From: Alteromonadaceae bacterium XY-R5
GTDB lineage: Bacteria; Pseudomonadota; Gammaproteobacteria; Enterobacterales; Alteromonadaceae
NCBI GenBank assembly: GCA_001660395.1
Contig: LXWE01000001.1
Span: 1,054,001 to 1,118,000, forward strand
Direction of reading: 5' to 3'
DNA length: 64,000 nucleotides
Shown: piece by piece, positions 33,292 to 63,558 of the stretch
Numbering within the stretch: the first letter of the stretch is position 1
Layout: each line of letters begins with the position of its first letter
Made by a program: the position numbers and the translations under genes
The notes under the pieces: generated by a model
Told to the model about the DNA's origin: nothing
The model's input: the letters and a program-made list of their open reading frames with translations, nothing else
Databases searched by the model: none

Positions 33292-34287
33292 TCAGAAATT
33301 GTATTCCATGCCCAATCCCAGCCACGACTGACTGACGCCATCTTCTGAACTTTCATACAGGCTGGTTTCGCTGTTCCAGACAACACTGGTGCGCTCCAGC
33401 TCGCGGTTGGTATACCAGAAATAGAATTTAGTCACCGAGTTGTAATACACATCAGCACCAAAACTTACTACGTAGGTGTTGTCCATGCTTTGCAGCTGCG
33501 ACTTAAGGGTAATATTGTTCTGCTCATAGGCGACGCTGATTAACGCGCCCCCCATGCCATTTTCATGGGTATCGGTTTCCTGCTGATACTGAGCACCAAA
33601 TCCCCATAAGGCATTGCCGATTTTAGTCTGGGTGATCACCCGGGCAACATCATAGCCACGTACGGCATAGTCCAGAGCCAATGCACTGTACCACTGACCT
33701 TGTTCGGGGTTTTCTTTACCGCCCCAAAAAGACACGGATTTAAAACCATTCCAGCTGCCTTCGCCAATGGCATAGGTCAGGCTCATGCCACCATTCAGAT
33801 CTTCCGGGGTGGTATATGTCAGGGATTTATTGATCCAGTTTTCACCGGCCCAAATATTGCGGATATCGGCTTCATAGTGGTTGAACTGATCGGCAGTCGC
33901 CTGAGAACGTTTCAGGGCAGAATCATAGCGTCCTACCAGCAATGAGCCCCAGCTGGTACTTTCAAAGCCAAAATACTGGTTGCGTGCAGAAAGGTTGTCA
34001 CTGTCGATGATGTCTGAAAAATCAGTATTCCATTCCATCAGAAACACAAATTTGGTTTCTTCGGTAAGCTGCAAATCCAGCGTGGCACCGCCGTAAGAAT
34101 CATTACTGCGCGACTCAGTAAAGGCCCCCTTTCCTTCATCGGACGATTGCACCGACAAATCGAGACGCATATAAAGTTCAAGAGCATCGTCTGTGTGTTG
34201 ATGACGATGATGAGAGTGATAATCTCCCGCAGCCAGACCGACTAACGGGTATCCTGCCAACGCAAGCAATGCTAATTTTTTAATCAA
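33292..34287 (-). CDS. Porin with His-rich N-terminus
   Basis: Outer-membrane porin of 331 residues in the same style as the phosphate-linked porin at 38.4-39.3 kb, with shared motifs (NQYFGFEST, LVGRYDSALKRSQ, DQFNHYEADI, ALDYAVRGYDVARVITQTKIGNALWG) and a terminal strand LGMEYNF. The signal peptide is about 20 residues. Directly after it comes HSHHRHQHTDD, six His in eleven residues, a likely metal-binding stretch at the mature N-terminus. Start is TTG 34287: AAAGGG lies 8 bases upstream and the signal peptide begins there. No Pho-box-like site was found upstream. Single-gene unit; substrate unknown. Confidence 0.85.
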   Translation of the reverse strand: MIKKLALLALAGYPLVGLAAGDYHSHHRHQHTDDALELYMRLDLSVQSSDEGKGAFTESRSNDSYGGATLDLQLTEETKFVFLMEWNTDFSDIIDSDNLSARNQYFGFESTSWGSLLVGRYDSALKRSQATADQFNHYEADIRNIWAGENWINKSLTYTTPEDLNGGMSLTYAIGEGSWNGFKSVSFWGGKENPEQGQWYSALALDYAVRGYDVARVITQTKIGNALWGFGAQYQQETDTHENGMGGALISVAYEQNNITLKSQLQSMDNTYVVSFGADVYYNSVTKFYFWYTNRELERTSVVWNSETSLYESSEDGVSQSWLGLGMEYNF

Positions 34288-37261: not shown

Positions 37262-38173
37262 TTATCGATCGAGTGTAGGAATGGGCATCAGAGGGGCAAT
37301 CAGTTCAGCTAAATAACGGAATAAACGCATGCGCGTAGTGCCGTTTCGCCACACCAGACCAATCTCACGATAAGCCTGATCTTCTGACGGCATTGAGACC
37401 AAATGCGTGTGACTTAGGATCTTATTCTGGATCGCCAGTTCCGGCAGGAAGGTGAAGCCCATTTTGCTTTCTGCTAACTGCACCAGTGTGAACAAGCTGC
37501 TGGCCGCCAGTGAACTGACTTGTTCTTTATGTTGCAAACCGCAGGCACTGACTGCGTGGCCAGTCATACAGTGTTCCTGCTGCAGCAAAAACACGCTGTT
37601 TTTAGGCAGTGCAGATACATCCATCGGATGTGGCAGAGAATCCACTAATTCGCTGTGCGAAACCAAGTGAAATGGGTCATGGCCCAGCACCAGTTTCTTG
37701 CAGTTTGGCGTGTCCATGGGCAAGGCCAGGATAAGCAAATCCAGGACACCTTCATTGAGTTGATCCTGCAGGTTTTTAGTCGTGTCTTCCTGCAGTTGTA
37801 ATGTCAGTTCCGGTAGCGCCGCATTGACCTTTTGGATCAGCTTTTCAAACACAAATGGGGCAATGGTTGGGATTACCCCCAACTTAAGTGTACCCGCCTG
37901 CCAGTTACCTGCACTTTGGGCAAAGTCCACCAGTTCATTGGCGTCGTTCAACAGCTTGCGGCTGCGCTCAACCAGTTCCAATCCAAATGGTGTGAACACA
38001 AAGGTTTTGTGATCCCGTTCCAGTAGCTGGCAGTTAAACTGGTCTTCCAGATTCTGGATGGCGGTACTAAGGGTAGACTGGCTGACGTGGCAGCGTTGGG
38101 CAGCGCGATTAAAATGCTGCTCTTGGTGAAGCGTGACCAGGTAATGCAGATGTTTCAGGTTAGGCCATTTCAT
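37262..38173 (-). CDS. oxyR: Hydrogen peroxide-sensing regulator OxyR
   Basis: LysR-type regulator of 303 residues. Its N-terminal helix-turn-helix (FNRAAQRCHVSQSTLSTAIQ) is typical of OxyR. The redox pair is Cys202 and Cys211 in HCMTGHAVSAC, with eight residues between them as between Cys199 and Cys208 of E. coli OxyR, and the following stretch (LVQLAESKMGFTFLPELAI) aligns with that protein. It should form a disulfide with peroxide and switch on defence genes. No catalase or ahp genes lie beside it; the sigma operon is next on the same strand but 160 bp away. Confidence 0.9.
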   Translation of the reverse strand: MKWPNLKHLHYLVTLHQEQHFNRAAQRCHVSQSTLSTAIQNLEDQFNCQLLERDHKTFVFTPFGLELVERSRKLLNDANELVDFAQSAGNWQAGTLKLGVIPTIAPFVFEKLIQKVNAALPELTLQLQEDTTKNLQDQLNEGVLDLLILALPMDTPNCKKLVLGHDPFHLVSHSELVDSLPHPMDVSALPKNSVFLLQQEHCMTGHAVSACGLQHKEQVSSLAASSLFTLVQLAESKMGFTFLPELAIQNKILSHTHLVSMPSEDQAYREIGLVWRNGTTRMRLFRYLAELIAPLMPIPTLDR

Positions 38174-38356: not shown

Positions 38357-39274
38357 TTACAGGCGAATTTCCAGACCTGTTCCCAGCCAGTTACGATTAT
38401 TACTGGCATCCACATCCTGATAGGTATACCAGGCGTATACTTTGGTGCCTTCCCCTAGCTGATAATCAGCACCGACACTGTAGCTACGATCATCTTCCAT
38501 GGTTTGCGCCTGGCCTTTAAAGGTCCAGTCAGAATCCAGCTTATAGGCTGCGCTGATCAGCGCGCCCGTTTGGCTTTCGCCGCCCTCGGAAACTTCCTGA
38601 CGCTGCGCCATCACACCCAGTTTCAGATTACCCATTTTGGTTTGTGCACCGGCACGAATAATATCGTAACCAGATACATCAAAATCTGCCGCTACCGCTG
38701 CATACCAGGCACCTTTTTTCAGATCTCTGTCTCCATAGGTAACCGCCACTGACTGGCCGCTTTCACCCTCTTCGTCACCTTTGGAGATGAAAGTAAGCTG
38801 CGCGTTAAAGCCATTGTATGTAGGCGATTTGTAGGCAACAGACTGACCCAGACGGTTATCCCCTTTCCACAGTTTTTTCAGATCGCCTTCGTAATCATTA
38901 AACTGGTCGATACGTCCCTGAGACAATTTCAGTGACGTATCTACACGGCCGGCCAATACCTTACCGAAATCACCGGCCAGGCCAATAAACTGGTTGCGTG
39001 AAGTGATATTCTCATCACTGGATAAATTGGCTAAATCTACGCCCCATTCCAGATTGTAAAACGCCGTTAGATTATGTTTCCCCAAGGCTTGCTCGCCTTT
39101 CACTCCAATCCTGGAACTATTGCTTTTCAATTCCGTAAAGCTGCCATTGCCCTCATCTGCTAACTGAAATGACACATTGCCTCTGGCAAAGAAGTCCAAT
39201 GGTAATTCAGCTTCCTGAGAAGAAAGAGGAGAAAGAATCAGAAGCCCGCAGGCTAATAAGGATTTAGATTGCAT
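38357..39274 (-). CDS. Porin, probably phosphate-starvation induced
   Basis: Outer-membrane porin of 305 residues with an N-terminal signal peptide (LLACGLLILSPLSS) and barrel strands ending LGTGLEIRL. It is a paralogue of the porin at 33.3-34.3 kb (shared NQFIGLAGDFGKVLAGRVDTS, DQFNDYEGDLKKLWKGD). It lies directly downstream of pit on the same strand, but pit has its own terminator, and a Pho-box array with a correctly spaced -10 precedes this gene. It is therefore likely a PhoB-controlled porin that admits phosphate or phosphorylated compounds, similar in role to PhoE or OprP. Role inferred from promoter and location. Confidence 0.85.
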   Translation of the reverse strand: MQSKSLLACGLLILSPLSSQEAELPLDFFARGNVSFQLADEGNGSFTELKSNSSRIGVKGEQALGKHNLTAFYNLEWGVDLANLSSDENITSRNQFIGLAGDFGKVLAGRVDTSLKLSQGRIDQFNDYEGDLKKLWKGDNRLGQSVAYKSPTYNGFNAQLTFISKGDEEGESGQSVAVTYGDRDLKKGAWYAAVAADFDVSGYDIIRAGAQTKMGNLKLGVMAQRQEVSEGGESQTGALISAAYKLDSDWTFKGQAQTMEDDRSYSVGADYQLGEGTKVYAWYTYQDVDASNNRNWLGTGLEIRL

Positions 39275-39344: not shown

Positions 39345-39390
39345 ATTACAGCTGAGAGTTTATTATAGTTTTATTACAGTTATATTACTG
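39345..39390 (-). promoter_or_regulatory. PhoB-type promoter of the porin
   Basis: Read on the minus strand, three half-sites lie at 11-bp steps: CAGTAAT, CTGTAAT and CTATAAT. The last two make an 18-mer (39362-39379) that matches the E. coli Pho box at 15 of 18 positions. TGTAAT (39345-39350) follows after 11 bp, where a PhoB-dependent -10 should be. The porin ATG is 70 bp further on. Confidence 0.7.
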
Positions 39391-39430
39391 CATGACATTT
39401 TTATGAAGGTAATATTACAGGCCGGAGTAA

Positions 39431-39457
39431 AAAAAAAGCCAGCACTCAGGCTGGCTT
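39431..39457 (-). terminator. Terminator after pit
   Basis: On the minus strand AGCCAGC and GCTGGCT form a stem with a short loop, followed by a long T run. It separates pit from the porin and shows that the porin needs its own promoter. Confidence 0.9.
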
Positions 39458-39475
39458 CTTTTGAAATTCAACTAC

Positions 39476-40744
39476 TTATGCAGCGAAGATGCCTTTGATC
39501 ATAAAGAAGAAAATGATCGACAGACCAGCACCTGCAGGTAGAGTAACTACCCAGGAAACCACGATATTGCGCACCACACCCAAGTTAAGGGCAGCGATAC
39601 CACGGGCCATACCTACACCTAATACTGCGCCAACCAGTGTTTGCGTAGTAGAAATCGGCAGACCAGTACCTGATGCAATCACAACCGTACAGGCAGCGGC
39701 TAACTCGGCAGCAAAACCACGGCTAGGTGTTAAGTGAGTAATACCGTTACCGATGGTGCGGATTACACGGTGACCGAACAGGGCCAGACCCATTACGATA
39801 CCCAAACCACCAAGAGGCAGAATCCACCATACCAGTGGTGATTTCGCCGCAATTTCACCGTTGTTGCTAACAATGCTAACAACCGCAGCCAATGGCCCAA
39901 TCGCGTTAGCTACATCGTTAGAACCGTGCGCAAATGCCATACAACAGGCCGTTACAACCATCAGTACCGCAAACACTTTTTCAACGTTGGCATAGTGCAT
40001 CTTACGGTCACTTTTCGGATCGTACTTGATACGTGAAATTGCATAACGGCCCGCAATACCAACGACAACAGCAATCGCTACTGCAATCAGGTAGCCGTCA
40101 AAGGTAGGAATGTTCAAACCAACGTGTGACAAACCTTTTTGGATGGTCACCAAAGACATCACAAAACCGGCCACGCCCATATAAAATGGTACATAGCGCT
40201 TGGCATTTTCAAACGGCTTATCCGTATCGAAAATCAGTTTTTGCGCACTTTGGAAAATCAGGTAAGCGATAAATCCAGAGATAGCAGGCGTAATAATCCA
40301 GCTACCGACAATCCCTGTTACCTTGTTCCAGGAAACCGCATCGCCACTGACACCAACCGCTGCGAAACCAATGATGGCACCAACGATTGAGTGTGTGGTC
40401 GACACTGGCCAACCCAGGTATGACGCGATCGCAAGCCAGATACCCGCAGATAGTAACGAGGCGATCATACCGTATACCAGCAGTTCAGGTGCATCGACAA
40501 AATATGCACTGTCGATAATGCCCTTACGAATCGTTGACGTTACCTCGCCACCCGCTAAATAGGCACCCGCAAACTCAAAAATCATAGCAATCAGGATTGC
40601 CTGTTTAATGGTTAAGGCTTTGGAACCCACAGAGGTGCCCATTGCATTGGCAACGTCATTCGCACCAATACCCCAAGCCATTAAAAAACCAACCGCAGCA
40701 GCGGTTACGATTAAAATAAAACCGTATGTGGAAAATATATCCAT
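39476..40744 (-). CDS. pit: Low-affinity inorganic phosphate transporter, Pit family
   Basis: Integral membrane symporter of 422 residues that brings in phosphate with a cation. The two Pit signature copies are present, GANDVANAMGTSVGSKALT near the N-terminus and GSNDVANAIGPLAAV in the second half, with about ten membrane segments. The DUF47 gene lies 12 bp upstream, and such pairs form Pit-regulator units in many bacteria. The operon is preceded by a Pho-box-like promoter, which is unusual because Pit is usually expressed without PhoB. A loop near the middle (ISRIKYDPKSDRKMHY) is cytosolic by charge. H+ or Na+ coupling cannot be told from sequence. Confidence 0.95.
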   Translation of the reverse strand: MDIFSTYGFILIVTAAAVGFLMAWGIGANDVANAMGTSVGSKALTIKQAILIAMIFEFAGAYLAGGEVTSTIRKGIIDSAYFVDAPELLVYGMIASLLSAGIWLAIASYLGWPVSTTHSIVGAIIGFAAVGVSGDAVSWNKVTGIVGSWIITPAISGFIAYLIFQSAQKLIFDTDKPFENAKRYVPFYMGVAGFVMSLVTIQKGLSHVGLNIPTFDGYLIAVAIAVVVGIAGRYAISRIKYDPKSDRKMHYANVEKVFAVLMVVTACCMAFAHGSNDVANAIGPLAAVVSIVSNNGEIAAKSPLVWWILPLGGLGIVMGLALFGHRVIRTIGNGITHLTPSRGFAAELAAACTVVIASGTGLPISTTQTLVGAVLGVGMARGIAALNLGVVRNIVVSWVVTLPAGAGLSIIFFFMIKGIFAA

Positions 40745-40756
40745 GCAATACTTCTC

Positions 40757-41434
40757 TTAGTTTGCGAGCATTAGCTCGAGTCGAGAGCCGACTCTTTCAG
40801 AAATGTCAGCGAGTTCGCCAACCCATTCAATGATGTTATACAGGAACATGACATCTACCGGATTTAAGGTAGATTCAATTCTTAGCAGGTGCTGACGCAG
40901 ACTAATTTGCAATTTGTCTGTGTCATCTTCGATGCGATCTAACTCCTCAATCATATTCTCAACTAAACGCACTTCACGGCCTTTAAAGCCCGTTTCCAGC
41001 AGTTCGTCCAGCTCATTGATCACCTTACGAGCCTGACCTGTCGCTTGCAAGCAACGCTTCAGGTACTCCATAAACTCATCACGTAACTCGGATGGGATAA
41101 CCAGACGACGACCCACCACTCGGCCAGAGATATCTTTGGCTTTATTGGCAATCTTGTCCTGGTGAGTCAGCAGGTCCAACACGTCCTGACGTTGAATCGG
41201 CATGAAAATACCACTTGGCAAGCTGATACGCAGCTCACGTTTAATGGTATCGGCCTGACGTTCCAGAGTAGAAATCTCTTTCTGGATTGTCTCTGCCGCG
41301 GTCCACTCCTCAGCAAATACCGCTTCGAAAAACGGCAATAAAGATCGACTACATTTGTAGACAATGTTGATGTGATCTTCTAATGGTTTGAGGGGAGATT
41401 TGGCAAATACCCCAAGAAATGAATTGTTAGGCAT
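40757..41434 (-). CDS. DUF47 (PhoU-like) Pit accessory protein
   Basis: A 225-residue, all-helical protein of the DUF47/TIGR00153 family, related in fold to PhoU. Features include LEDHINIVYKCSRSLLPFFEA, ISTLERQADTIKRELR, LLTHQDKIANKAKDISGRVVG and EWVGELADISERVGSRLE, which can bind a metal cluster through Glu/Asp-rich faces. Its gene lies 12 bp before pit, the usual arrangement, where it is thought to regulate Pit activity. A Pho-box-like promoter is 86 bp upstream. Function is inferred from family and context. Confidence 0.9.
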   Translation of the reverse strand: MPNNSFLGVFAKSPLKPLEDHINIVYKCSRSLLPFFEAVFAEEWTAAETIQKEISTLERQADTIKRELRISLPSGIFMPIQRQDVLDLLTHQDKIANKAKDISGRVVGRRLVIPSELRDEFMEYLKRCLQATGQARKVINELDELLETGFKGREVRLVENMIEELDRIEDDTDKLQISLRQHLLRIESTLNPVDVMFLYNIIEWVGELADISERVGSRLELMLAN

Positions 41435-41502: not shown

Positions 41503-41537
41503 ATCTTACACGATGAAATATGACAAAAATATTACAA
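41503..41537 (-). promoter_or_regulatory. PhoB-type promoter of the DUF47-pit operon
   Basis: On the minus strand the half-sites TTGTAAT and TTGTCAT are separated by four T/A bases (41520-41537); TAAGAT (41503-41508) lies exactly 11 bp further on as a possible -10. The half-sites match the consensus CTGTCAT at 5 and 6 of 7 positions. About 70 bp remain to the DUF47 ATG. Confidence 0.6.
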
Positions 41538-41568: not shown

Positions 41569-42285
41569 CTACCGTAAATCCTCTAGTTTTTCTTGCAAGG
41601 ATTCCATCGGCGAATGGCGCATATCTTTACCCTGGGTTAAATAAAATACATATTCACAGATATTCTTGCAGCGATCGCCGACTCTTTCCAATGCACGCAC
41701 TGCCCATAAAACCTCCAACCAGTCTTCCAGCTTTTCACTATTACGTTGCATTTCTGCAACGGTGTCTGAGAGTAAGTTCTTGTATTCAGCGTCTATTTTT
41801 TCATCTTCACGGTACATGAGCAGTGCCGCCTGGCTGTCTAAACGGGCAAATGCATTGAGGGTACCGCGCAGCATTTCCATGACATGATTACCAATGCTGA
41901 GCATGTTTTTAATGATGTCCGCCGAGTCTGGCAGCTTACCTTTGGCGATCATTCGCGCAATCCGCTCGATTTCATCTCCGATGCGTTCAATATCTGTGGT
42001 GGTTTTGGCAACGGTTAATACCATGCGCAAATCGCTAGCCGCAGGATGACGCTTGGCAATAATGCGCAGGCATTCTTCATCAATCTGCATTTCCATCGAG
42101 TTGACGTTTAAGTCGTTAAACACCACCTTTTCCGCCAGACCACGATTGTTATCGCGCATGGCAATAAGCGTATCACTGAGCTGCTGTTCGATGGCACCGC
42201 CCATGGTCAACACTGAGTTACGCAGGTTTTCTAACTCAATGTTGAAGCGTGCCGAAATATGCGTATTTAGTTTAAATTTTGGCAT
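41569..42285 (-). CDS. phoU: Phosphate-specific transport accessory protein PhoU
   Basis: Cytosolic helical-bundle regulator of 238 residues that links Pst activity to PhoR signalling and represses the Pho response when phosphate is plentiful. Both three-helix repeats are visible, with the metal-site motifs EMQIDEECLRIIAKRHPAASD, RIGDEIERIAR and RVGDRCKNICEYVFYLTQG. It is the last gene of pstC-pstA-pstB-phoU, 11 bp after pstB. The DUF47 gene begins about 130 bp downstream under its own promoter. Confidence 0.97.
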   Translation of the reverse strand: MPKFKLNTHISARFNIELENLRNSVLTMGGAIEQQLSDTLIAMRDNNRGLAEKVVFNDLNVNSMEMQIDEECLRIIAKRHPAASDLRMVLTVAKTTTDIERIGDEIERIARMIAKGKLPDSADIIKNMLSIGNHVMEMLRGTLNAFARLDSQAALLMYREDEKIDAEYKNLLSDTVAEMQRNSEKLEDWLEVLWAVRALERVGDRCKNICEYVFYLTQGKDMRHSPMESLQEKLEDLR

Positions 42286-42296
42286 AGCAAACTCAC

Positions 42297-43103
42297 TTAA
42301 CCATAACGGCCGGTAATGTAATCTTCCGTGCTCTTCTTCTGTGGCAGGGTAAATAAGGTATCGGTATCCGCAAACTCAATTAATTTACCCTGATGCATAA
42401 ACGCAGTGTAATCAGATACCCTGGCAGCCTGCTGCATATTGTGGGTCACAATAATCACGGTGCACTGATGTTTAATCTTGTTGATAAGCTCTTCAATGTA
42501 AAGCGTAGTTAAGGGATCGAGGGCCGAGGTAGGTTCATCTAATAGCAAAATTTCGGGTTTAAGGGCTAACGCCCGGGCGATCACCATACGCTGCTGCTGA
42601 CCGCCAGATAACGTTAAGGCAGAATCAAACAAGCGATCTTTGACTTCATCCCACAGCGCTGCATCTTTCAACGCCTGTTCAACGGTATTATCCAATACGC
42701 GGCGGGATTTCTCCTGCTGCAGCCGCAAACCATAGCTGACGTTGTCATACACTGACATAGGAAATGGATTAGGTCGCTGGAATACCATGCCGACACGGGT
42801 ACGCAACAGGGCGACATTTTCGCGTTGATCATAGATATTGCGACCATCTATCAGCACTTCGCCCTGATACTGACAATCGGCAACCAGATCATTCATGCGA
42901 TTAAAGCAACTGATTAACGTCGACTTACCGCAGCCTGACTGGCCAATGAGTGCCGTGACCTGATGCTTAGGAATGGCCATGGAAATGTCTTTCAGCACTG
43001 GCTTATTGCCAAACTGCAGAGAAAAATCCCGCACTTCAATGGCGGTTTTCTCGGCTGGCAAATTATGCAAATCCAGCACATTACGCTCAAACAGTTTTAC
43101 CAT
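42297..43103 (-). CDS. pstB: Phosphate ABC transporter ATP-binding protein PstB
   Basis: ATPase of the high-affinity phosphate importer, 268 residues. Walker A is GQSGCGKST, the ABC signature LSGGQQQR, Walker [13 protein letters not shown], and the switch His is in IIVTHN. The Pst-specific RMNDL stretch follows the Walker A helix. It lies 32 bp after pstA and 11 bp before phoU in one operon. The first 15-20 residues before [11 protein letters not shown] are not part of the conserved core, so a slightly later start is possible. Confidence 0.97.
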
Positions 43104-43135
43104 GCTTTATCCATTCTACCTGATTCAGAGACAGC

Positions 43136-44698
43136 CTAATTCTGGCCGTATAAGCGTCTTAATTTAACCCGAATACCCACTGCGCACATGTTTAATGCAA
43201 ACACAATCAGCAGTAATAACAAGCAGGCCGCAAACATAAATGGCGAGCCCTGACCAAAGTTTTGGCTATGAAACGCACCATCATAAATAAGCGCGCCCAA
43301 ATGCATAAACTGACGTTCGAGGTGCAAAAAGGGAAATTCAGTATCAATTGGCAATGATGGCGCATATTTGACGGCGCCCACTAAGATCAAAGGCGCTACC
43401 TCGCCTGCCCCACGGGCAATTGCCAGGATCACACCAGTCATGATCCCGGGGCTGGCCATCGGCACTACGGTACGCCAGATGGTTTCGGCACGAGTAGCAC
43501 CAAGTGCATAGCTGCCTAAACGCAACCCGTCAGGCACCCGTCGCAAACCTTCCTCCGTGGCCACAATTACCACAGGTAAAGTCAGCATCGCCATGGTTAA
43601 GGATGCCCAGAACAAGCCCGGTGAACCTAATGTGGGCGTTGGCAGATATTCACTAAACAAGAGTTCATCAATACCGCTCCCCAGGGTATATACGAAGAAT
43701 CCCAAGCCAAAAACGCCGTACACCACAGAAGGCACACCAGCGAGGTTGTTTACGCTGACTCGCAACAACGCAGTCACCCAGTTATTCGGTGCATACTCAT
43801 GCAGATAAATTGCTGCCAGCACCCCGATGGGGGTCACTATGATGGTCATTAACAATACCATCAGCACGGTGCCGAATAAGGCTGGATAAACGCCCCCTGC
43901 CTGACCAAACTGGCGGGGAGAATCAAACAGAAAATGCAGCAGATTTTCACCCGCCATCAACAGTTTTCCAAATACCGAATGCTGATTTGGCTGCTCTAAA
44001 TTACGCACTTCGAAAACCGGAACCGTCATCTTGCTGCCATCCGCCAAAGCCAGTTGTAATTGATACTGGGCCTGCTCCTGCTGCAACTTAGTCACTTGTG
44101 CATCAAGCAAGTAAAAACGGTCCGTCAGCTTTTTCACCGCCGGAGCATCACTTTCTACCCCACGCAGGTTCAATTCCGCCAGTTGCTGATGAATATCCGC
44201 CAGTTCGCCTTCACGGATATGGTTAATGTCTTCGGATAACGTCAGTGCTGACTGGCGTACATCGTCAAAATCTCCCACCGCCATCTGCGTATTGTCAGGG
44301 CCGTGAATGTATAAAAGATTCGCCAGGATTTTGGTGCCGTCATCCAGAAAAATACGATACGCATCTGGTGCCAGCTCGCGTTTAGTAATCTGATCTTGAG
44401 TAATAAATAATGCGTGACTGGTGATTTGCTCAGCCGATGAAATACTGAAGCGCCACTCTATGCCCGATTCGGTATGTGATACTCGCCTTAATTCAGCAAA
44501 CACTTGCTGCTCAGGCTCCTGTTGATGACTCTGATAATGCAGGCGATATAAAGGTTCAGGCCAGAAATAATCGCCACCACGGATCAGTACAAACACCACT
44601 AAAAATACCAACAAAATCAGCAAACTAGCAGCGAATAAACTGCTGGTACGTAAAATCGCACCATCAAAAATCCTGGAGGACATGCGAGTGTTACCCAT
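43136..44698 (-). CDS. pstA: Phosphate ABC transporter permease PstA, long form
   Basis: Inner-membrane subunit of the phosphate importer, 520 residues, about 220 longer than E. coli PstA. The extra part follows the first membrane helix (LLILLVFLVVFVLIRGG) and forms a periplasmic domain with a coiled-coil-like middle (REGELADIHQQLAELNLRGV). The permease core has the usual helices and the coupling loop (LRLGSYALGATRAETIWRTV). The gene overlaps pstC by 8 bp and precedes pstB by 32 bp. Long PstA proteins are usual in Vibrio and Alteromonadales relatives; the role of the insert is unknown. Confidence 0.93.
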   Translation of the reverse strand: MGNTRMSSRIFDGAILRTSSLFAASLLILLVFLVVFVLIRGGDYFWPEPLYRLHYQSHQQEPEQQVFAELRRVSHTESGIEWRFSISSAEQITSHALFITQDQITKRELAPDAYRIFLDDGTKILANLLYIHGPDNTQMAVGDFDDVRQSALTLSEDINHIREGELADIHQQLAELNLRGVESDAPAVKKLTDRFYLLDAQVTKLQQEQAQYQLQLALADGSKMTVPVFEVRNLEQPNQHSVFGKLLMAGENLLHFLFDSPRQFGQAGGVYPALFGTVLMVLLMTIIVTPIGVLAAIYLHEYAPNNWVTALLRVSVNNLAGVPSVVYGVFGLGFFVYTLGSGIDELLFSEYLPTPTLGSPGLFWASLTMAMLTLPVVIVATEEGLRRVPDGLRLGSYALGATRAETIWRTVVPMASPGIMTGVILAIARGAGEVAPLILVGAVKYAPSLPIDTEFPFLHLERQFMHLGALIYDGAFHSQNFGQGSPFMFAACLLLLLIVFALNMCAVGIRVKLRRLYGQN

Positions 44699-46820
44699 GT
44701 TTGGCTCGCTTACGCAAATGGCCTCGTAAGGCTTCTGCCAATGTATTTACCACAAAAGTAAACAAAAACAGCAATAAGGCCGTTAAGAACAGGATCTGAT
44801 AATGGCTGCTACCGACTTCCGATTCGGGTAGCTCGATTGCCAGGTTTGCCGTCAGTGCGCGCAACCCGGATAAAGGATTCCAGTCCGCGACGGCAGTATT
44901 CCCTGTCACCATCAGCACTATCATGGTTTCCCCAAATGCACGACCAAACCCCAGTGTGACGGCAGATAAAATCCCTGGATACGCCACCACCAGCACCACA
45001 TTTTTAAGGGTTTGCATCGCCGTTGCGCCCAGTGCGAACGACGCCTGTTTCAAATGCTGGGGAACTTCATAGATGGCATCCTCGGCCAACGAATAGATAC
45101 TGGGGGTAATGGCAATGCCAAGAGCAAAAACGACCACCAGGGTTGACTGTGCGCTGGGAAAGCGCTGCCAGACGTTGGACAGATAGGGCATGGCCCATTC
45201 ATGAGCGGACTGAAAACTCAAGGTTGCCGCCAGACCCGCGGCAATTAGCACACCTAGGGCTAAGCCAAACCCTGGCCCGGTCACAAACGCTTTGGGTAAT
45301 ACCCCTAAACGCTTTACCACCGCGGCTAAAACAAAAAACAGGGGGATGTACCAAATCAATAATGCAATGGCCACCAGACCTTCTTCAGCCAGTGGGGTTA
45401 ACCATATGGCCGCAATAAACCCGATAATAACCGATGGTATCGCTTCTAACATCTCAATGGCCGGCTTCAGCCAGCGACGCAAACTGGCATCGGCAAAATA
45501 GGCGGTAAAAATAGCAGCCCCTAATGCCATTGGGATGGCGACCGTCAACGCCATCAGTGCTACTTTGATACTGCCCATCAGCAATGGGGCAACGCTAAAT
45601 TTAGCTTGCTGGTAATCTGCCGCACTGGTGGTTTGCCAGACATAGCCAGGCTTGGCATAGCCTTCAAACCAGGCCTTATCCCACAGGCTTGCCCAGGTAT
45701 TAATGCCGGATATATGCTTCACTTGTGCCAGTTCGAGTTTATGCGCGCCTGCAAGTATCAGTTGGTGCCCATCTAAACGCGCCAATTCAATGCCCCCATC
45801 CACTTCGGGCAACACGTCAGACACTGCCTGAGTTGAGACCACTTCACCTGTGACCGTATTAAAAAATAACGCCTGTTCATCGGTGAGCATTAATCCCGCA
45901 TTGGTACTGGCATGAAACAACAACGCCTGGACACGAAAGGCCGCGTGTTTGTGAGTGCCTAATGACCAAACCTGCTGGAAATGAAACTCACCATTTGCGT
46001 TGAAAATGGACCACTTTTGCAGCGCATTGCTGCTCGCCAGATAGAGAGCTTCCTGACCTGGCGCAACACTGGCAAAAGAGATTGCCTCAGCCAGTGGCCA
46101 TTGCTGCACTAATTTGGCCTTTGTTCCAATAACGCTGACGTTTTCAGACTGGAGCGCTACCACTTGCTGTACACGCGGGAACAACAGGAGTTTGTCTGCG
46201 GCCCCCAAAAACTGATGGCGAATATCCGCCCGGTTGGCGGTATTCACCCAATACACATGCCAACCATCCCCCAGTTCGGCCGCTACGCCCACCCACTGAC
46301 GGGCCATCGCCACCTGCCATTGCTTTAGTCCCTGCCATTTATCCACATCGCTGACCGCCAGCGCAAAGCTGTCCTGATGTTCAATTCTGGCCTGCATTTG
46401 CGACAACACTTCGCTACGCAATATTCCCCCGGCACCAAGACTAAACAGGTAATCCTGACCTTCAAAATTGACGATTTTCAGCTGTTGATCACAGGTAAAT
46501 GGCCGGCGACGCTGGGCCGTTAATTTGTTCTGGGAACTATCCAGTTGCAGGTAGTGCAGCGCACAGTCTTTGCCTCTGGCAATCACCATCCGTGCTTCGG
46601 CAGGGTTATCTAAGGCCTGCACCTTCATATCCGCAGGAAGTTGCCACTGACTCTGAGGCTGGATCGCAGGGGAATACAACAGCGGCAACGTTTGACTGAC
46701 CAAATGCCAGATCAGTACCAGCAGACTCATTAATACCAGCGCACCACCGCTATGCACCAGCACAGACGTTAATCTGTCCTGACGGTGGCGTTTACTGGAA
46801 ATTCGGTCCTTGGCTGGCAT
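44691..46820 (-). CDS. pstC: Phosphate ABC transporter permease PstC, long form
   Basis: Inner-membrane permease of 709 residues, more than twice the size of E. coli PstC. One N-terminal membrane helix (LVLMSLLVLIWHLVSQTL) is followed by about 350 periplasmic residues rich in beta-type repeats (LHYLQLDSSQNKL, EALYLASSNALQKW), possibly a propeller. The C-terminal permease domain (about 410-700) has the coupling loop QASFALGATAMQTLKNVVL and GFGRAFGETMIVLMVTG. It is the first gene of pstCAB-phoU here; no pstS is in the window. No strong ribosome site was seen before ATG 46820. Confidence 0.93.
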   Translation of the reverse strand: MPAKDRISSKRHRQDRLTSVLVHSGGALVLMSLLVLIWHLVSQTLPLLYSPAIQPQSQWQLPADMKVQALDNPAEARMVIARGKDCALHYLQLDSSQNKLTAQRRRPFTCDQQLKIVNFEGQDYLFSLGAGGILRSEVLSQMQARIEHQDSFALAVSDVDKWQGLKQWQVAMARQWVGVAAELGDGWHVYWVNTANRADIRHQFLGAADKLLLFPRVQQVVALQSENVSVIGTKAKLVQQWPLAEAISFASVAPGQEALYLASSNALQKWSIFNANGEFHFQQVWSLGTHKHAAFRVQALLFHASTNAGLMLTDEQALFFNTVTGEVVSTQAVSDVLPEVDGGIELARLDGHQLILAGAHKLELAQVKHISGINTWASLWDKAWFEGYAKPGYVWQTTSAADYQQAKFSVAPLLMGSIKVALMALTVAIPMALGAAIFTAYFADASLRRWLKPAIEMLEAIPSVIIGFIAAIWLTPLAEEGLVAIALLIWYIPLFFVLAAVVKRLGVLPKAFVTGPGFGLALGVLIAAGLAATLSFQSAHEWAMPYLSNVWQRFPSAQSTLVVVFALGIAITPSIYSLAEDAIYEVPQHLKQASFALGATAMQTLKNVVLVVAYPGILSAVTLGFGRAFGETMIVLMVTGNTAVADWNPLSGLRALTANLAIELPESEVGSSHYQILFLTALLLFLFTFVVNTLAEALRGHLRKRAKHG

Positions 46821-47083
46821 CTAAATTCGGGTCTCTCTGTCTACAGCACGGCCCTGAATCTCAGGGCGGAAAAGTGCACCATTGTAATGAGCAAACAACA
46901 CAATTAATAGTTGAAATGAAACAAGAAGTTCAAACATTGGCATTCATAAATTTGTCATTATTTTATGCTAGGCCACGGATTTTTCAGGCGAGTTAAGATC
47001 TGAATTTCTGTTTGCCTTTAGGATTGCAACTCACTTGCTATCCTCTAAGATGAAGTGACAACAAAAAAGAAGGAAGAAGTAAG

Positions 47084-47590
47084 ATGAAACCCATGGTGTT
47101 TACCCTGGTTGGCAAAGACAAACCGGGACTGATTGAATCCTTATCGAAACAAATACTCGCCCTCGGCGGCAACTGGCTTGGCAGTAGCTTTTCCCATATG
47201 GCCGGCCACTTTGCCGGATTTGTGGAAGTGGAATTACCGGAAGACCAGCATCAGGCTCTGACAGACGCCTTCGCCAAACATCCGGACCTGAATATTCAAC
47301 TGGTGAAGGCCGATAAGCGTAGCAACGTCCTGCCCCACACTGCGATCATTGATATTACTGCTAACGACAGAGCGGGCATCGTCAGAGAACTTACCAGCAC
47401 TCTGGCTGGCTTTAATTTAAATATCCTGAAATTTGATACCAGTTGTGAAAGTGCGCCTAACTGGGGTGGCAATTTGTTTAAGGCCAGCGCCCGCATCGCC
47501 ATTCCGGATGATTTTAGCCTAAGTGAATTAAGAGGCGCCCTTGAAGGTATCGCCGACGATTTAATGGTAGATATTCAGCGTAATGCCTAA
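47084..47590 (+). CDS. gcvR: Glycine cleavage system transcriptional repressor GcvR-like (two ACT domains)
   Basis: A 168-residue protein made of two ACT domains (FTLVGKDKPGLIESLSKQIL and IIDITANDRAGIVRELTST), as in GcvR, which binds glycine and blocks GcvA activation of gcvTHP. The N-terminal SFSHMAGHFAGFVEVELPE fits GcvR. AAGGAAGAAG lies before the ATG. The gene sits between pstC and ppk, far from gcvTHP at 27-32 kb, but in the same window, so all parts of glycine-cleavage control may be local. It could also be a general ACT regulator. Confidence 0.85.
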   Translation: MKPMVFTLVGKDKPGLIESLSKQILALGGNWLGSSFSHMAGHFAGFVEVELPEDQHQALTDAFAKHPDLNIQLVKADKRSNVLPHTAIIDITANDRAGIVRELTSTLAGFNLNILKFDTSCESAPNWGGNLFKASARIAIPDDFSLSELRGALEGIADDLMVDIQRNA

Positions 47591-47602: not shown

Positions 47603-47620
47603 CCGTCATAAAAGCGTCAC
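47603..47620 (+). promoter_or_regulatory. Pho-box-like site before ppk
   Basis: CCGTCAT-AAAA-GCGTCAC matches the E. coli Pho-box consensus at 14 of 18 positions, 59 bp before the ppk ATG and just after gcvR. The -10 is less clear (TAAGGATAC at 47630-47638). Confidence 0.6.
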
Positions 47621-62685: not shown

Positions 62686-62772
62686 GCTTGTCAGGTAATC
62701 AAACCGTCAAAACTGGACAATTCTGAGTCAGGGCTAACACTTATTAGTGCCCTAATCATTGAGGAGTTTGGT

Positions 62773-63558
62773 ATGCGATTTTGGTTTGTACTGATTAGTG
62801 TCATCTTATTAATGGCCTGCGCCACATCACCGACGGGTCGTGCCCAGATCAAACTGTTCTCTAAAAGCCAGCTAGATAATATGGGCCAGCAAACCTTTGC
62901 CAGCCTGAAACAAGAACAACCCGTTAGTGCCAGCAAAGTGGAAAATCGCTTTGTCGAATGCGTTGCCAATGCCATTACTGCTCAGGTTCCCGCCAGCGTG
63001 TTTTCCGGTAGCTGGGAAGTGGTGGTATTTGATGATAAGCAGGTAAATGCTTTTGCCTTGCCTGGGGGAAAAATTGGTGTCTATACAGGCTTATTGACCG
63101 TGACGGAAAATGCCGACCAGCTGGCCGCTGTGATAGGTCACGAGGTTGGCCATGTGATCGCTGAACATGGCAACGAGCGGATGTCGAATAGCACTCTGGT
63201 CGGCATTGGCCTCGAAGCCACAAATGCCATGCTTGATGCAAATCAGGTTGGCAATAGTCAGTTAATTATGGCTGCTATCGGTGCAGGTGCGCAGGTAGGT
63301 ATCACTTTGCCTTTTAGTCGTACCCATGAATCAGAAGCTGATTTGATTGGTCTGAATTTAATGGCCCAGGCAGGATTTGATCCACGTCAGTCGGTCAATT
63401 TATGGCAAAACATGGCCAAAGTCGGCGGTGAAGGGCCAATGGAATTTCTCTCGACTCACCCTGCTCCACAAACCCGTATCAATGACCTGCAAAAGAATAT
63501 GCCCCATGCTTTAGAAATTGCCTCTCAGGCAAAACAACATCCGACGTGTCCAAAATAG
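62773..63558 (+). CDS. M48 metallopeptidase lipoprotein (LoiP/YcaL-like)
   Basis: Zinc peptidase of 261 residues, anchored to a membrane by lipidation (lipobox LLMAC, Cys near residue 16). The zinc motif is HEVGH in VIGHEVGHVIAEHGNERMS, and the third ligand Glu lies in THESEADLIGLNLM. MFALPGG-type sequence NAFALPGGKIGVYTGLL is typical of LoiP, YcaL and BepA-like periplasmic proteases that watch over outer-membrane proteins. GAGGAG precedes the ATG. Single gene with a terminator behind it. Confidence 0.92.
   Translation: MRFWFVLISVILLMACATSPTGRAQIKLFSKSQLDNMGQQTFASLKQEQPVSASKVENRFVECVANAITAQVPASVFSGSWEVVVFDDKQVNAFALPGGKIGVYTGLLTVTENADQLAAVIGHEVGHVIAEHGNERMSNSTLVGIGLEATNAMLDANQVGNSQLIMAAIGAGAQVGITLPFSRTHESEADLIGLNLMAQAGFDPRQSVNLWQNMAKVGGEGPMEFLSTHPAPQTRINDLQKNMPHALEIASQAKQHPTCPK

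Follow-up and report, generated by a model that had tools for sequence, protein, structure and literature searches.

In the genome of Alteromonadaceae bacterium XY-R5, a porin gene lies directly behind a cluster of phosphate transport genes, raising the question of whether it is a phosphate-starvation gene in its own right, expressed from a PhoB-activated promoter. We examined a 64,000-nucleotide stretch around this gene (hereafter the window, with coordinates counted from its first letter). The porin gene (38357..39274, minus strand; 305 amino acids) is preceded on the same strand by the phosphate transporter gene pit (39476..40744; PHO4, E 9.5e-121), a DUF47/PhoU_div gene that accompanies pit (40757..41434; PhoU_div, E 4.4e-62) and phoU, pstB, pstA and pstC (41569..46820). 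The gap between pit and the porin measures 201 bp on the minus strand, from the pit end at 39476 to the porin start at 39274. The first-pass annotation had placed a terminator in this gap, and this was borne out: an intrinsic terminator follows pit at 39431..39462 (minus strand), consisting of a hairpin of -17.4 kcal/mol (z -3.3; as good in 1 of 200 shuffles) and a T run, and therefore the porin should need a promoter of its own, barring transcript read-through. A consensus terminator scan did not include this hairpin in its list. Downstream of the porin lies a LysR-type gene (37262-38173, minus strand; nearest models OxyR), a relative of which is also found downstream of the porin at loci L183 and L189.

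To search for PhoB sites we used an 18-position PhoB-box matrix trained on the 300-bp stretches that precede 30 phoB and 31 pstS genes from relatives and the source genome, with porin upstreams excluded; the matrix was seeded with the E. coli consensus and converged on TTGTCATAAAACTGTCAT. The source genome encodes PhoB itself (TIGR02154, 368.3 bits against a cut-off of 296.2), and its phoB gene has a box of 23.5 bits. In the 201-bp gap, four 18-mers scored at least 13 bits (17.4, 16.4, 16.3 and 13.2), all between 39362 and 39420 on the minus strand. The half-sites within this region form two arrays of three, each with steps of 11 bp. The downstream array consists of CAGTAAT (39384..39390; 4.3 bits), CTGTAAT (39373..39379) and CTATAAT (39362..39368; 3.0 bits alone), which pair into boxes of 16.3 bits (39390-39373) and 16.4 bits (39379-39362); these are the three half-sites reported by the first-pass annotation, and both their sequence and their spacing held up. 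Its range of 39345-39390, drawn around these three, stopped just short of the best box, CCTTCATAAAAATGTCAT (39392-39409; 17.4 bits), and overlooked the second array altogether. That upstream array comprises CTGTAAT (39414..39420; 8.3 bits), CCTTCAT (39403..39409; 5.3 bits) and ATGTCAT (39392..39398), the last two of which form the best box. Since the arrays stand 8 bp out of register, as measured between the first bases of the third upstream and the first downstream half-site, both may not be occupied together.

The half-sites are weak: the top box falls below that of the source genome's phoB (17.4 vs 23.5 bits), and in the second half of both downstream-array boxes A replaces C, a change shared by 6 of the 56 training boxes of at least 15 bits. 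Only one of the six half-sites contains TGTCA. The AT content of the core (71%) and a score below that of many relatives' copies would suit a decayed or chance AT-rich stretch, with the porin expressed from an ordinary promoter or independently of phosphate. Shuffling argues against this reading: two or more boxes of at least 13 bits arose in none of 10,000 dinucleotide shuffles of the 201-bp gap, the top score was matched in three, and when the 85-bp AT-rich core was shuffled alone 10,000 times, four shuffles reached the top score and none held two boxes. Boxes also occur at the same place in related promoters; in an alignment of ten promoters of the pit-linked kind the window box at 39409-39392 coincides with similar boxes at L009, L185 and L189, those of the others lying elsewhere. 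We therefore regard chance or decay as highly improbable, and a PhoB-matrix scan, which the first-pass annotation had proposed, places the boxes of the porin gap far above chance. A sigma-70 scan of the minus strand of the gap found no promoter-like site.

Simpler pattern searches added little. A strict TGTCA triplet pattern matched the source genome at two places, neither at the porin, and is too strict. A pattern derived from the sites themselves matched only the porin in 5.1 Mb with zero mismatches, and eight places vs three for a reversed control with up to three mismatches; as proof it was dropped for its circularity. A loose two-half consensus (126 genome matches with up to two mismatches vs 90 for its reversed control) occurs too often to tell anything, and a plasmid similarity search with the gap sequence gave zero matches.

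Across both strands of the window, ten places scored at least 11 bits; the sites of the porin gap rank 2, 3, 4 and 7 among them. Ranked by the best box upstream of each of 48 window genes (median -0.15 bits), the porin comes second, and three of the five best upstreams belong to phosphate genes or to the porin itself: ppk (20.3), the porin (17.4), an ACT-domain protein gene at 47084 (14.4), DUF47-pit (12.7) and the ORF at 62773-63558 (12.6). The ppk-ppx box, CCGTCATAAAAGCGTCAC, lies 59 bp upstream at 47603..47620 (plus strand), and because of this strong box polyphosphate synthesis is probably part of the Pho regulon here. The weaker box before DUF47-pit (41520-41537, minus strand; 85 bp upstream) suggests that pit may likewise respond to PhoB. 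The two other sites are located at 46941-46958 (plus strand), before the ACT-domain gene (47084-47590), which is divergent from pstC, and at 62693-62710 (plus strand), a box-like site. No PhoB box was found in the stretches tested before the window's pstC (best score 3.4 bits) or the source genome's pstS. Downstream of that pstS, near position 369619 of contig C223 (L207:1922-3550, minus strand), a 23.8-bit box, CTGTAACAAAAGTGTCAT, precedes a gene for a 542-residue lipoprotein-like protein followed by an apparent TonB-dependent receptor, as named by eye.

The porin and its box are widely shared. At the order level, 30 of 59 genomes, the source genome among them, gave a match to the porin; at the family level 215 of 295 genomes did so, of which the best 30 supplied loci. 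The 56 loci scored comprise the best matches at the order level, further best family matches and L005 and L006; they include the window and exclude the source genome's paralog and two duplicate records, and two of them (L006 and L192) have an identical promoter and may represent one species. A box of at least 11 bits precedes the porin at 51 of these 56 loci, and one of at least 15 bits at 43; the five lacking a box at the lower threshold are L005, L032, L034, L203 and L206. Shuffling gave p values of at most 0.01 for 33 of 34 tabled porin upstreams, in which two records appear twice, the remaining one being L034 (p 0.5). By comparison, none of nine control porins away from phoB and pst genes, eight from the same genomes and one the window's other porin, reached 11 bits (range -5.0 to 10.7). 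The highest of these, L168 (10.7 bits, p 0.017), may hold a weak true site. The window's other porin (33292-34287, minus strand), which is of the same family and 36% identical, scored 5.3 bits, and the source genome's paralog (C223:28227-29075; 49% identical) scored -4.5 bits, so neither has a box. Four further porins beside phoB were divided, two with strong boxes (23.8 and 22.6 bits) and two without (L175 and L176).

Gene neighbourhood points in the same direction. In 23 of 30 genomes the best porin match is no more than 6 kb away from phoB, pstS or pstC/A, and in 15 no more than 2 kb. Among 57 loci searched, pit is immediately upstream of the porin in nine (L006, L007, L008, L009, L010, L012, L185, L189 and L192), all of which have a box of at least 12 bits, and within 1.5-kb flanks six loci have phoU upstream and fourteen have phoB downstream.

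These comparisons also bear on the main rival to PhoB, namely that another regulator of the OmpR family, such as OmpR or CpxR, uses the GTAAT repeats. Porin genes belong to the classic targets of OmpR, and A-rich half-sites resemble sites of the OmpR/CpxR type, so the identity of the gene and the shortage of TGTCA among its half-sites would both fit such a regulator. Nevertheless, the relatives mostly have boxes of the TGTCA type at this position, and the matrix, which learned from phoB and pstS promoters, recognises them; the linkage of the porin is to phosphate genes; and steps of 11 bp match the spacing of PhoB sites as given in the accessible part of one report (PMC4415409). Control by OmpR or CpxR thus seems quite unlikely, if somewhat less so than chance or decay.

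Although the boxes and their distribution favour PhoB, the placement of the -10 element does not follow the original proposal. PhoB promoter spacing is described as strict in the portion available of PMC10294691. A box of at least 15 bits is present in 56 of the 61 training upstreams, and 55 of these leave room for a hexamer; in this set the match to TATAAT averaged 4.67 of 6 positions at a gap of 10 nt after the box vs 1.44 at a gap of 11. Both A at position 2 and T at position 6 are present in 48 of the 55 at gap 10. The porin loci behave alike: of 28 loci, 20 have their best hexamer at gap 10, four at 8, three at 12, one at 9 and none at 11, and over 42 loci the hexamer match averages 3.45 for gap 10 against 1.83 for gap 11. 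The first-pass annotation had taken TGTAAT (39350-39345), 11 bases beyond the last half-site, as the -10 of a complete PhoB geometry. The hexamer does stand at that position, and as a lone hexamer it scores 3.0 bits, but it lacks the A at position 2 and is one base off the native gap; since the training promoters and the porin loci alike place the -10 at gap 10, its role as a -10 is doubtful and the geometry cannot be called complete. We rejected gap 11 as native geometry, the A and T being found together there in only 1 of the 55 training promoters. The surrounding CTGTAAT (39345..39351, minus strand) scores 8.3 bits, equal to any half-site in the region, and could be either a stray half-site or a -10 element set at an unusual gap. 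The candidate TAAACT (39357..39362, minus strand; 2.3 bits), 10 nt after the box at 39390-39373, would suit the native spacing better, and neither candidate is strong. Reading the raw sequence can therefore catch a real, weak Pho promoter and yet miss its -10 and its best box.

The lack of a well-placed -10 leaves room for a third reading, in which PhoB binds at the gap and mainly represses the porin or has no effect. The third downstream half-site, CTATAAT, includes a perfect -10 hexamer that bound PhoB would cover, and a large number of E. coli PhoB sites, for the most part within genes, have no transcriptional activity according to the accessible text of PMC10294691. However, the sites in the window are intergenic, and in 20 of the 28 loci described above the -10-like hexamer is best at the activating gap of 10, in none at 11. 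We give repression or inert binding the smallest chance of the three rival readings.

The protein itself is of the 16-stranded general-porin type, and both a Porin_4 profile match (Pfam, E 2.4e-24) and the barrel fold expected of a general porin were found, the latter in an AlphaFold2 model with a pLDDT of 90.6. The solved folds nearest to this model are Omp32, BpsOmp38 and PorB, with Omp32 of Comamonas/Delftia acidovorans at the top (TM 0.79 by query length; 18% identity). The Omp32 structure 1e54 bears the title "anion-selective porin". Profile matches likewise place PorB and Omp32 nearest among solved relatives, and a Phosphoporin PhoE chain ranks last of 18 (E 3e-5). Residues R55 and K116 are shared by all 52 porins whose box scores at least 11 bits, but also by 9 of the 15 without such a box; as a marker of Pho-regulated porins the pair was perfect over 37 sequences and was set aside when it weakened over 67. 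Their conservation is a hint, no proof, of a basic channel. Passage of phosphate through the pore and a preference for anions are predicted.

Porins driven by PhoB are already known, and the window porin would add one more. The E. coli phoE gene has an A-type box, TGTAATAAAAGCGTAAAC, that shares the C-to-A change of the window's boxes, and the part of PMC10294691 available gives its expression as 68,155 in the wild type vs 69 in a phoB deletion; unlike PhoE, to which it is not close in sequence, the window porin adjoins pit and pst. By its description in the accessible part of PMC13157583, VCA1008 of Vibrio cholerae is an anionic outer-membrane porin produced under phosphate limitation, which makes it similar to the phosphate-limitation porin proposed here, although VCA1008 has been measured and the window porin is known from sequence. 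Klebsiella KpnO, an OmpC homolog, is described in the available text of PMC3405095 as regulated by PhoBR with a predicted PhoB site upstream, and by that description it too resembles the window porin. On the simplest account, the window porin probably works like PhoE or VCA1008.

We conclude that the gap very probably contains the PhoB-activated promoter of a Pho-regulon porin gene that stands on its own. The central claim of the first-pass annotation, a phosphate-starvation porin under PhoB control, is thus supported by the matrix, the relatives, the controls and the linkage to phosphate genes, and its detailed promoter model is not. Because PhoB sites stand in front of the gene and are common to many relatives, the porin is probably made when phosphate is depleted. 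When phosphate is scarce, phosphorylated PhoB would occupy the half-sites that run in tandem, at 11-bp steps, from 39420 to 39362 and bring in RNA polymerase at a weak -10, for which TAAACT (39362-39357), 10 nt after the box at 39390-39373, is the likeliest candidate. The porin would thereby be switched on apart from pit, whose transcript would stop at the terminator, and would broaden the entry of phosphate and other anions through the outer membrane.

A broader proposal, which we advance tentatively and consider somewhat doubtful as a whole, is that Alteromonadaceae and related families possess a porin of the Porin_4/Omp32 type dedicated to phosphate starvation that is tied to phoB, pst or pit, remains under PhoB control even when unlinked, and is a counterpart of PhoE of separate origin; the window's operator, with its two arrays out of register, might then be a switch of the graded or competing kind. 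Judged by titles and the starts of abstracts, the open literature searched yielded nothing on control of an Alteromonadales porin by PhoB. The present analysis suggests a regulatory role for a porin that annotation otherwise labels just "gram-negative porin". It also points towards a porin for phosphate uptake that is widespread among common bacteria of the sea, where phosphate is frequently limiting.
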